Shown piece by piece: positions 27,061 to 44,609 of a stretch of 64,000 bases of DNA (the first letter of the stretch is position 1; the number at the start of each line of letters is the position of its first letter). The stretch is from assembly GCF_000344805.1 (NCBI RefSeq), contig NC_020453.1, positions 6,977,001 to 7,041,000 on the forward strand, in the 5' to 3' direction. Source of the DNA: Bradyrhizobium oligotrophicum S58 (GTDB lineage: Bacteria; Pseudomonadota; Alphaproteobacteria; Rhizobiales; Xanthobacteraceae). The translations under genes and the position numbers were made by a program. Below the pieces are notes generated by a model. The model saw nothing but the letters and a program-made list of their open reading frames with translations. It made no database searches and was not told the origin of the DNA.

Positions 27061-29477
<2,417 letters not shown>

Positions 29478-29481
<4 letters not shown>

Positions 29482-29978
29482 TCCGCAGCCTCCTGGAATT
29501 CAACGCCGTTGATCTTGGCGGCGGCGTATTGGATCGCCTTGACGATGTTCTGATAGCCGGTGCAGCGGCAGATGTTGCCGGAGATGCCGGCGCGGATCTC
29601 GGCTTCCGTCGGCGACGGATTCTCCTGCAGCAGCCGATGCGCGCGCAGAATCATGCCGGGCGTGCAGAAGCCGCATTGCAGGCCGTGCATCATGCGAAAG
29701 CCTTCCTGCAGCGGCGACAAGGTGCCGTCGGCATTGGCCATGCCCTCGATCGTGGTGATCTCGGCGCCGTTGGCCTGCACCGCCAGCATGGTGCAGCTCT
29801 TCACGCTCATGCCGTCGATATCGATGGTGCAGGCGCCGCAATGGCTGGTCTCGCAGCCGATATGGGTGCCGGTGAGCTGCGCCTGCTCGCGCAGGAAGTG
29901 AACCAGCAAGGTGCGCGGCTCCGCGAGGCCCTCGACCTCGCTGCCGTTCACTTTCATCGTGACGTGGGTTTTGGGCAT
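29478..29978 (-). CDS. coxS: CO dehydrogenase small subunit, two [2Fe-2S]
   Basis: The 166-residue subunit, the same length as in Afipia, carries electrons from the Mo site to FAD. The plant-type cluster uses Cys42, 47, 50 and 62 ([20 protein letters not shown], then SC). The second, helical cluster uses Cys102, 105, 137 and 139 (QCGFC and ICRCTG). These numbers match the reference exactly. GGAG lies 7 bases before the ATG. It lies about 220 bases downstream of coxM, across a repeat. Confidence 0.97.
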
Positions 29979-30202: not shown

Positions 30203-31066
30203 CTACTTGGCGCGGCTTGCCGCGCGCTGCAGGGCGCGCATCACCATGATGCCACCGACATGCTTGCGGTATTCGGCCGGGCCGCGCGCGTCGGACGCGG
30301 GTTGCATGATGTCCCGCGCGGCGCTCGCGGCGGCCTTCAGCGCGGCATCGTCGAGTGCCGTGCCGATCACCGCCTTGGCCGCGTCGGTCGCCAATAGCGG
30401 CGTCTCGTGCAGATTGGTGAGCGCGATCATGCACGTCGCGACCTTGCCGCCGGCCATCGTCAGCACGACGGCGGCTGCGGCCGTCGCATAATCGCCGACC
30501 TTGCGCTTCAGCTTCTCATAGGCGTAGCCGTGACCTGCGGGCGGAACGGGCACGCTGACCTCGGTCAGGATCTCGCCGGGCTCCAGCGCGGTGAAATAGG
30601 CGCCCTGGTAGAACTCGCGGGCGGCGATCTCGCGGGCGCCGTTCGGCCCTTCCAGACGGTAGCTTGCATCCAGCGCCAGCATCAGCGCCGGCATGTCGTT
30701 GCCGGGATCACCATTGGCGACGTTGCCGCCGAGCGTGCCGCGGTAGCGTACCTGCGGATCGGCGATCACCAGCGCGGTCTCGTGCAGGATCGGCAGGCTG
30801 CTTCCGATGTCGGCGGACGCCAGCAATTCGGCCTGGGTGGTCATTGCGCCGATCAAGATGCGGTCGCCGTCGCGGCGGATACCTTTCAGGCCGGCGATGC
30901 CGTGCAGGTCGACCAGATGCGCAGGGGTCGCCAGCCGCAATTTCATCATCGGCAGCAGGCTGTGACCGCCGGCGAGCGGGCGCGCCTCGTCGCCGAGATC
31001 AGCCAGCAGCTTGATGGCGTCGGTGACGCTCGCGGGCCGGTGATAGTCGAACGGGCCAGGAATCAT
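30203..31066 (-). CDS. coxM: CO dehydrogenase medium subunit, FAD-binding
   Basis: The 287-residue subunit (288 in Afipia) binds FAD and passes electrons to quinone. The FAD motifs are AGGHSLLPMMKLRLA at 32-46 and TLGGNVANGDPGNDMPA around 111-127. GGAGGGG lies 8-9 bases before the ATG, a very strong site. It is the first gene of the structural coxMSL set. Its 350-base upstream gap to coxC contains the LytTR-like repeats and an inverted repeat. Confidence 0.97.
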   Translation of the reverse strand: MIPGPFDYHRPASVTDAIKLLADLGDEARPLAGGHSLLPMMKLRLATPAHLVDLHGIAGLKGIRRDGDRILIGAMTTQAELLASADIGSSLPILHETALVIADPQVRYRGTLGGNVANGDPGNDMPALMLALDASYRLEGPNGAREIAAREFYQGAYFTALEPGEILTEVSVPVPPAGHGYAYEKLKRKVGDYATAAAAVVLTMAGGKVATCMIALTNLHETPLLATDAAKAVIGTALDDAALKAAASAARDIMQPASDARGPAEYRKHVGGIMVMRALQRAASRAK

Positions 31067-31124
31067 CGTGTTTCCCCTCCTGTGCTGGCATGCCTTGTCG
31101 GCTTGGCTTGGTTGCGCTGATGCG

Positions 31125-31164
31125 GCCGACGTTCATGCTGCAAGAGCGAGATGTGAACGTCGGC
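31125..31164. promoter_or_regulatory. 11-bp inverted repeat in the coxM leader
   Basis: GCCGACGTTCA at 31125-31135 and TGAACGTCGGC at 31154-31164 are perfect reverse complements separated by 18 bases. The site lies 59-98 bases upstream of the coxM start. It could be an operator or the stem of a leader hairpin. The repeat is seen, the role inferred. Confidence 0.5.
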
Positions 31165-31243
31165 GATGATCGCTGCTGGCGTGGAGGGTCGATCGTGACA
31201 GCCGGCTGCGCAACGAGGCCGGCACGGACAACCGTGAAATCAC

Positions 31244-31273
31244 ACGAACTGCCGGAGAACGCGCACGAACTGC
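31244..31273 (-). promoter_or_regulatory. LytTR-type direct repeats upstream of coxMSL
   Basis: On the minus strand GCAGTTCGT occurs twice, at 31273-31265 and 31252-31244, with exactly 12 bases between. The known LytTR consensus is (T/A)(A/C)(C/A)GTTN(A/G)T, two copies 12-13 bases apart; each repeat matches at 8 of 9 positions. The pair lies 178-207 bases before coxM and just downstream of coxC, whose product has a LytTR domain. CoxC binding is therefore an obvious hypothesis. Confidence 0.6.
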
Positions 31274-31415
31274 GTCAGCCAGGACGCCCCAATCGCGCGC
31301 GTCGAGGCTTGAATGGACGCACATCGCAGAACGGCAGCCACTCGCCGCCCATCGCTGTGCGAGCGTTGCGAGCATCACGGCGCGCGTCGCTGCAGCTGCG
31401 AACTGAAGAAGGGGA

Positions 31416-32627
31416 TCAGGCCTGCCGTCGCACCAGCCCGAGCCGCGCCTTGACCTCGGCGACCTTGGCGCGGCTGACCGGGACGCGCGGCTTCGACGGG
31501 CCGTCGAGCTCGATGATCGCGCCCTCGCCCTCCTTGCCGACGAAGGTCACATGCTCGATCGCGACGATGTGGCTGCGGTGCACGCGGATGAAGCGGCCGG
31601 GATCGAGCTGCGCCTCGGCCTCTGAGATCGACCACGGGCACATCCGCTCGCGGGTGCCGTCGTGAATCCGGGTGTAGTGCGCATCGGCGCGCACGCTGCG
31701 GACGTCGCCGGCGTCGATGAAATGGGTTCCGTTGGCGCCCTCCAGCGGCAGCCGCGCCGCGGTCACCCGCGGCGGCTGGCCGATGCCGCCGAGCGGCGCG
31801 GCAATGACCCGGCTCGGCGCGGCGACCTCGACCACCGGCTCGCTCGCCGTCGCGGCCGGCTCCGGCGCCAATCGCGGCGCAGCCTCGGCAACGGCCTGTA
31901 GCGGCTGCGATTGACGGCGCGGGTCCGGCACCAGCGACAGCAGGAAGCCGGCAGCAATGACGAAGCACAGCACCGCGACCACGATCGCGAGCGCCTGCGG
32001 CGATGCGGCAAGACCGGCTGCGACGTGGTGGTGCCCCTCGCCCGCCGGCACGACATGCATGCCGAGCATCGCCGTGTAATGCATGCCGGACACGGCGATG
32101 CCGAACGCCACTGCGCTGATGGCGAGCCGCAGGCCGTCCTGCCGTGCCAGGAAGATGCGCAGGCCGCCATAGGCGGCCACGATTGCGATGCCGACCGACA
32201 GCGCCACCAGCGCCGGATCATGCGTCAGCCCGAACGAGCCGGACAGGCCATGCATGCCGACATAATGCATGCTGGCGATGCCGGCGCCGAGCAGCAGCGC
32301 CGAAGGAATGACGCGCTGTGGCGAGGGGTCGCCGATGCTGACGAAGAACAGCGAGATGCCGATCACGAGCGCGCAGATCAGGAATGAGATGATGGTCGGC
32401 AGCACGAGGTAGACGGCATCGGCCGGCAGCGGCGCCGCCATCATGCCCACGAAATGCATGGTCCAGATGCCCACGGCCAGAATGCCTGCGGCGCCGGACA
32501 ACAGCACGCGCGCATTCTCTCCCGGCCCGCTGCGGATGCGCGCGGTGAGACTGAAACCGGTATAGCCACCCAGGCTCGCGATCACGACCGAGAGCGCGAC
32601 GAGATAAGGATCGTATCCTTCGATCAT
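31416..32627 (-). CDS. coxC: CoxC, MHYT membrane sensor with LytTR domain
   Basis: The 403-residue protein has an N-terminal seven-helix MHYT domain with three motifs (MHFVGM, MHYVGM, MHYTAM). A Pro/Ala-rich linker (about 265-300) leads to a C-terminal LytTR DNA-binding domain (about 305-400) with VRSVRADAHYTRIHDGT and FIRVHRSHIVAIEHVTFVG. MHYT domains are proposed to bind copper and sense diatomic gases such as CO or O2. It is transcribed in the cox direction, before coxM. A direct membrane-to-DNA regulator of CO oxidation is the likely role. Confidence 0.9.
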   Translation of the reverse strand: MIEGYDPYLVALSVVIASLGGYTGFSLTARIRSGPGENARVLLSGAAGILAVGIWTMHFVGMMAAPLPADAVYLVLPTIISFLICALVIGISLFFVSIGDPSPQRVIPSALLLGAGIASMHYVGMHGLSGSFGLTHDPALVALSVGIAIVAAYGGLRIFLARQDGLRLAISAVAFGIAVSGMHYTAMLGMHVVPAGEGHHHVAAGLAASPQALAIVVAVLCFVIAAGFLLSLVPDPRRQSQPLQAVAEAAPRLAPEPAATASEPVVEVAAPSRVIAAPLGGIGQPPRVTAARLPLEGANGTHFIDAGDVRSVRADAHYTRIHDGTRERMCPWSISEAEAQLDPGRFIRVHRSHIVAIEHVTFVGKEGEGAIIELDGPSKPRVPVSRAKVAEVKARLGLVRRQA

Positions 32628-43625: not shown

Positions 43626-44609
43626 TCATTCCTGCGCGATGACAGCGTCGAGCCACGCGCAGTTCAGCGGCGGCACATTGGGGTCGGGCACGCGAACGCC
43701 GCGCGCAGCAGCGGACAGCCGCATGTCGCGCAGGCGCTTGCGCGGCTCGTCCGGCAGGTACAACCGCTCGTGTCCCCACAATGACGGACCGTCGAAGGTC
43801 TCATGCGGCTGCCAGGTCGTGGGATCGATCACCCGGCCGCCCCAGCCATATTCGATGAAGAATCCCGAGGGCGTGTTGACGTAGAACGAGGTCATGTGGT
43901 CGTTGGTGTGACGGCCCAGCGTGTAGGCCACGCGCCCGTCGTCGAGCTGCGCCAGGTCATAGCCCTGGCCGACATCGTCGAGGCTGCCGAGCTCCACCAT
44001 GAAATGATGCAGCGTGCGGCGGCCGGAGCCGACCATCGCAAAACTGTGGTGGCGGCCGTTGACGTGGAAGAAATACAGCTTGTACGGCGTCAGGCCGAAG
44101 TCGGACACCTGGAAGCCGAGCAGGTCGCGATAGAACGGCAGCAGCGGCTCGACCTCCTCGACGTTGAGCACCACGTGTCCCATGCCAAGCGCCCCGGTGC
44201 GAAAGCCGGAGATCGGACGTCCCGGCCTGAAGGGATCCGAGGCGACGGCTGCTCCCCAGAACACCTCGATCATGTTGCCGGCGGGATCCTGAAAGCAGAT
44301 CAGCTCGGTGACATGACGCTCGTCGGCCAGTGCCTGCGAACCGCTGATGACCTTCACGCCGTTGTCTTCGAGCCGGCCCGCCAGGCGCGCGAGCGCGGCG
44401 GCGTCGCCGACCTCCCAGCCCATGACGGCGAGCCCGCCATCGCCGCCGCCATCGACGATCAGCCGCTGCTTGCGGTCGTCCATGCGGTAGGCCTGCATCC
44501 CGGCCGCGCGATCGATGCGCTGCATCCCGAGCAGCTCGGTCGCCATCCGTCCCCACTGCTCCGCTTGCGACGACTTGATGCCGATGTAACCCAGCGCCGT
44601 GATGTCCAT
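43626..44609 (-). CDS. Extradiol ring-cleavage dioxygenase (BphC type)
   Basis: The 327-residue two-domain VOC enzyme should open catechol rings next to the diol. The C-domain iron ligands fit His145 (LGMGHVVLNV), His201 or 202 (LHHFMVELGS) and Glu253 (GFFIEYGWGG). The active-site His/Tyr motif TNDHMTSFY is also present. The ATG at 44609 follows GGGAG. The longer open frame extends across the divergent IclR gene and is not real. It is divergent from the regulator at 44751. Confidence 0.9.
   Translation of the reverse strand: MDITALGYIGIKSSQAEQWGRMATELLGMQRIDRAAGMQAYRMDDRKQRLIVDGGGDGGLAVMGWEVGDAAALARLAGRLEDNGVKVISGSQALADERHVTELICFQDPAGNMIEVFWGAAVASDPFRPGRPISGFRTGALGMGHVVLNVEEVEPLLPFYRDLLGFQVSDFGLTPYKLYFFHVNGRHHSFAMVGSGRRTLHHFMVELGSLDDVGQGYDLAQLDDGRVAYTLGRHTNDHMTSFYVNTPSGFFIEYGWGGRVIDPTTWQPHETFDGPSLWGHERLYLPDEPRKRLRDMRLSAAARGVRVPDPNVPPLNCAWLDAVIAQE

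Follow-up and report, generated by a model that had tools for sequence, protein, structure and literature searches.

A candidate three-unit operator for the membrane regulator CoxC upstream of coxMSL in Bradyrhizobium oligotrophicum and other CO-oxidising alphaproteobacteria

Two direct repeats in the coxC-coxM gap of Bradyrhizobium oligotrophicum S58 are, with good probability, the first two of three operator units for the membrane protein CoxC, lying 5' of a predicted coxMSL promoter at which CoxC would most likely contact RNA polymerase. The site, its conservation, its link to coxC and its spacing from the predicted promoter were computed here, starting from a stretch of 64,000 nucleotides (the window, to which positions refer unless another locus is named). 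On the minus strand of the window, coxC (31416..32627) is separated by a gap of 349 bp (31067..31415) from coxM (30203..31066), coxS (29478..29978) and coxL (27061..29481), which encode the medium, small and large subunits of CO dehydrogenase. CoxC, 403 aa long, joins a membrane MHYT domain of three repeats to a LytTR DNA-binding domain, and the MHYT and LytTR assignment of the initial annotation is confirmed by Pfam (three MHYT stretches at 1.5e-37, LytTR at 1.6e-16). With its N-terminal MHYT repeats, its C-terminal LytTR domain and its place beside coxMSL, the protein has the features of the CoxC family; it is 38% identical to CoxC of Afipia (Oligotropha) carboxidovorans, and a search of solved structures with it gave no match up to E 0.01.

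The repeats themselves are exact copies, GCAGTTCGT-N12-GCAGTTCGT, at 31244-31273 on the minus strand, just as the initial annotation had placed two 9-mers 12 bases apart. The 64-kb window contains this arrangement a single time, as does the whole 8.26-Mb genome, and 100 dinucleotide shuffles contain it nowhere. Each 9-mer also agrees at 8 of 9 positions with the LytTR consensus as written in that annotation. This agreement is not significant, since pairs of 9-mers 21 bp apart, each fitting the consensus at 8 or more of 9 positions, number two in the window against about 1.0 expected from 10 shuffles; a match to the LytTR consensus alone is at chance level and is insufficient to define a site. 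The identical GCAGTTCGT pair is found in only one of 95 distinct coxC-coxM gaps, that of the window itself, and only 17 of the 95 first units have G immediately before TT. A strict search for GTTNNT pairs 20-22 bp apart matched only three of 91 gaps (the window, L081 and L107), which marks GTTNNT as the wrong consensus, and a learned model took its place.

This model was built from 118 loci, the window included. Seven lack coxC or coxM, and among the 111 with both, 16 gaps identical to another were removed, leaving the 95. All 95 hold a triad, CGCAnTTCGTGC / CGCAnTTCGTGC / TTCGTGCC (as fitted: CGCAnTTCGTGC, CGCAnTTCGTGC, nnnnttcGTGcc), with about two helical turns between units, although the loci share ancestry and such counts are not independent. 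The 21-base-period repeat that the initial annotation expected in other gaps is thus present in the form of the triad, but not as an identical 9-mer pair. That annotation had described two units and overlooked the third, and the core it took to be identical GCAGTTCGT copies gives way to a conserved TTCGTGC. In the TTNNNGC register, the window reads TTCGTGCG, TTCGTGTG and TCCGTGCC, at periods of 21 and 20 bp. Unit 1 (CGCAGTTCGTGC, core TTCGTGCG) occupies 31263..31274, unit 2 (GGCAGTTCGTGT, core TTCGTGTG) follows 21 bp later at 31242..31253, and unit 3 (GTTGTCCGTGCC, core TCCGTGCC) lies 20 bp after the unit 2 core at 31221..31232, all on the minus strand. Unit 3 is weak, with all four fixed bases of TTNNNGC present in 22 of 95 gaps and three of them in the window.

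Triad scores range from 28.5 to 56.5 in the 95 gaps on which the model was learned, whereas none of 950 dinucleotide shuffles scores above 8.5. When 54 gaps (CoxC at least 70% identical) were used for training and 41 (CoxC 38-70%) were held out, the triad was found at the same place in 41/41, the lowest score being 16.1 against a highest of -2.3 in 1640 base-composition shuffles; in this test, units in the training gaps were placed according to the fit to all 95. In a refit on the 54 alone, which is free of this leak, the triad again fell at the same place in all 41, and 38 exceeded the highest of 820 dinucleotide-model random sequences, 19.8, which the other three did not top. The triad is the best site on both strands of the fetched locus in 95/95 loci, and through this model direct repeats about two helical turns apart, as expected of a LytTR site, are found better than chance. 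In one locus (L034), where coxC and coxM are 2.4 kb apart, the site is still 142 bp before coxM. Taken with its link to coxC, described below, the triad at coxM very probably represents the coxMSL operator of CoxC.

Across the 64-kb window, the triad at coxM scores 38.4. The second-best match (43720, plus strand, 15.5) falls within long ORFs or coding sequence and slightly exceeds the best of 40 random 64-kb sequences, 14.9. The genomic sites 6512035 and 2792010 were rejected as further operators because both are inside long ORFs, and these matches are probably due to chance; so too, perhaps, is the one at 43720, although by outscoring the random controls it may be more than pure chance. No triad upstream of coxC, as autoregulation might require, was among the five best of either window strand. 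Outside the coxC-coxM gaps, nothing in the 95 loci scores above PcoxB of A. carboxidovorans, at 9.9.

A seeded search 3' of unit 3 converges on TTGCgg-N17-gAcCcT, and the -35 and -10 elements named here are predictions from this search. The mean score of the predicted promoter is 14.21, against at most 6.18 in 20 shuffled sets (10 rounds of fitting on real gaps, 6 on shuffled ones). From the start of unit 3 to the -35 element, the distance is 19 bp in 55 of the 95 gaps, 30 in 29, 31 in one, 38-39 in seven and otherwise in three. A weak predicted promoter hence stands at 19, 30(-31) or 38-39 bp in 92/95, in steps of about one helical turn, while in the shuffles any single distance was used at most 7 times. 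At coxM of A. carboxidovorans, the search picked a distance of 53 and not TTGAAT-N17-CTTCCT at 19. The 19 and 30 states switch at least 8 times on the CoxC tree, a weakly supported tree (23 of 92 inner branches starred) on which 19 was assigned manually as the A. carboxidovorans distance. In the window, the predicted -35 (TTGCGC, 31208..31213) lies 19 bp after the unit 3 start and is followed across a 17-bp spacer by the predicted -10 (GACCCT, 31185..31190), with a predicted transcription start near 31178, all on the minus strand. Unit 3 ends 7 bp before this -35, without overlap. Because of this 7-bp gap and the one-turn distance steps, contact between CoxC and RNA polymerase at coxM is most likely, and the helical phasing suggests activation or dual control by CoxC.

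Between the predicted transcript start and the ribosome site, coxM leaders such as those of L022, L039 and L074 carry a CGUCC...GGACG hairpin, which in an alignment of 69 leaders has 315 of 345 cells paired, with 13 compensatory, and which pairs with the ribosome site in some folds. In the window leader the stem (31126-31163) is longer and of another kind, and the window's own clade does not show it clearly.

Published work describes CoxC of A. carboxidovorans as a membrane LytTR protein that depends on copper and represses PcoxB until relieved by CO (Durante-Rodriguez et al. 2024, NAR; PMC11347149). In that account, repression was seen in E. coli, CO relief was seen both there and by gel shift, and the apparent KD for binding by the LytTR part is near 25 nM; CoxC binds three direct repeats at PcoxB, requires copper and is released by CO. 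The initial annotation, which predicted a CO- and copper-linked LytTR protein CoxC acting before coxMSL, agrees with this work as to the class of regulator, CO and copper. Its remark that membrane gas sensors touching DNA are little studied has been overtaken by the same characterisation. The kind of regulator and its gas switch are already known from this work, while the place of the operator at coxM, the 21/20-bp register, the conservation and the helical phasing appear to be new: we found no operator at coxM in print in the open-licence collection searched, which lacks most subscription journals.

The published PcoxB repeats, named TTNNNGCN, are given as 18-21 bp apart and overlapping the -35 (PMC11347149). 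As deduced from the reported primers and the sequence, they are TTACCGCC, TTTGGGCA and TTGCGGCA, with starts 29 and 26 bp apart. The triad model instead reads PcoxB (L114:2193-2241) as TTCATGCG, TTGGTGGA and TTTGGGCA, 21 and 20 bp apart, followed by TTGATG-N17-CTATCG at the 19-bp step. In a close relative (G154), the PcoxB triad and promoter are largely kept, and TTACCGCC reads CCACCGCA, losing its TT. The 21/20-bp register suits PcoxB better than the published repeats do. The published binding data fit both registers, because the published mutations, as deduced from the primers, still hit units 2 and 3. Compared with TTNNNGCN, the window units TTCGTGCG, TTCGTGTG and TCCGTGCC comprise one full match and two with one mismatch. 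The published spacing and the -35 overlap are both absent from the window, where 13 and 12 bp separate the 8-mers and unit 3 stops short of the predicted -35. On the 16.5-kb A. carboxidovorans plasmid stretch, the top sites are the coxC-coxM gap (20.3), PcoxB (9.9) and the coxH-coxI gap (5.9), with the fourth at -4.0. A CoxC-like site lies in the coxH-coxI gap both there (L114:14460, 5.9) and in the relative G154 (L238:1290, 15.2), which suggests that this gap may hold a third CoxC target promoter. The coxH gene of A. carboxidovorans OM5 (L114:13225-14425) is annotated as two overlapping coding pieces.

The same triad could serve CoxC purely as a repressor of coxM, bound to DNA without CO and released with it. 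This is what the repression and CO relief demonstrated for PcoxB, both in E. coli and in gel shifts, would lead one to expect (PMC11347149, as far as its account of PcoxB goes), and PcoxB shares with coxM the triad and the 19-bp step to its TTGATG-N17-CTATCG promoter. However, the units at coxM are clear of the predicted -35, and 37 of 95 gaps place that element 30-39 bp from the unit 3 start, at helical intervals for which a simple road-block would have no need. The geometry thus points to activation or dual control at coxM, whereas the published PcoxB promoter points to repression, and we regard pure repression at coxM as a real possibility, though one that falls short of being probable.

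The site goes together with coxC. A further survey covered 70 loci, of which three lack coxM (L130, L148 and L154) and one, L121, where the contig ends, was kept out of the count. The site scores over 5 at coxM genes beside coxC in 53 of 58 loci (20/22 in the family, where four of the 22, L126, L147, L151 and L153, repeat loci of the 95, and 33/36 in the order), against one of eight coxM genes for which the 1.3-4.0 kb fetched upstream contains no coxC (Fisher p 7.5e-6, at a cut of 5 picked after the scores were seen). At the strictest control cut, 19.8, the counts are 39/58 and 0/8. In the single exceptional genome (G337, 19.5), a full-length relative of CoxC, at 29-32% identity, is encoded on another contig. 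Among the five coxM genes beside coxC that score below 5, four (L131, L135, L190 and L211) carry degenerate pairs and one (L219) carries none. In G542, where coxC lies about 9 kb downstream, the site is absent from 16.5 kb, and one coxC-less cluster has a LysR regulator upstream. At L121, the site scores 27.6, the contig ends 218 bp upstream, and a LytTR protein was not found in the draft genome. A strict two-unit pattern, allowing up to two mismatches, was matched 27 times among 296 family genomes, in 25 of which it occurs, against 7 matches for the reversed control pattern. Nineteen of the 27 matches stand immediately before coxM, but they cover only 19 of 50 family genomes in which a form-I-like coxM is present. 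On a plasmid of Sinorhizobium meliloti AK83 (L116:6249), coxC and a strong site (44.2) occur with no coxMSL within the 5 kb fetched beyond.

RcoM1 is a soluble PAS protein. That the site serves another LytTR protein, either RcoM or the second one of this genome, is very unlikely. RcoM1 of Paraburkholderia xenovorans LB400 does use three TTCNNGCA repeats 12-13 bp apart (PMC11347149, as given there), and the genome does encode one LytTR protein besides CoxC. It has just these two, however, and the second (G000:C1:4220062-4220340; L140:1536-2414, minus strand; 292 aa) shows, on inspection by eye, hydrophobic segments near its N terminus; neither of the two matches PAS at E 0.001, and the site tracks coxC throughout the order. 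It is scarcely credible that the repeats are chance, or that they reflect some regulator-independent feature, in DNA or RNA, conserved at the coxC end or in the coxM leader: the pair is indeed at chance level by the LytTR consensus alone, but the triad occupies every gap, passes the held-out test and is nearly absent without coxC, and it stays at coxM even where coxC lies 2.4 kb off or on another contig.

A canonical LytTR site comprises two 9-bp direct repeats with 10-13 bp between them (PMC11347149, in its summary of such sites). The window site likewise consists of direct repeats about two turns apart, but it has three units, does not keep the G of GTT and is conserved further 3', in TTCGTGC. 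Like the window, RcoM1 combines a LytTR domain and aerobic cox genes with three TTC-type direct repeats, 12-13 bp apart and 5' of the -35; it differs from CoxC, a membrane copper MHYT protein, in being a haem sensor and activator (PMC11347149, from its description of RcoM1). The closest counterpart is CoxC at PcoxB of A. carboxidovorans OM5, where an MHYT and LytTR membrane regulator is encoded beside cox genes and three direct repeats are bound, according to the published description, and where our re-reading gives the same 21/20-bp register and 19-bp step to the -35. In contrast to that system, the window operator stands directly before coxMSL, and coxC adjoins a lumazine synthase gene and no coxB.

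Binding, CO response and the sign of control at coxM are what we infer. CoxC, anchored in the membrane, would place its LytTR domains, presumably three, along a single side of the DNA at intervals of about two turns, where they would bind the three TTCGTGC-type units. When CO reaches the copper-bearing MHYT domain, DNA binding would change, by analogy with what is published for PcoxB and its CoxC in A. carboxidovorans. Rather than just occluding the promoter, CoxC would most likely touch RNA polymerase at coxM and so activate, or act both ways. We propose tentatively, as a reading that is plausible but somewhat less than an even bet, that CoxC at coxMSL is a membrane-bound, CO-responsive activator or dual regulator working through a phased triad, that this role and not PcoxB repression is the ancestral one, and that the PcoxB register is shifted.

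These results provide a defined candidate DNA target for a membrane-bound gas sensor, placed before the enzyme genes in many CO-oxidising alphaproteobacteria. In addition, a corrected operator register is proposed.
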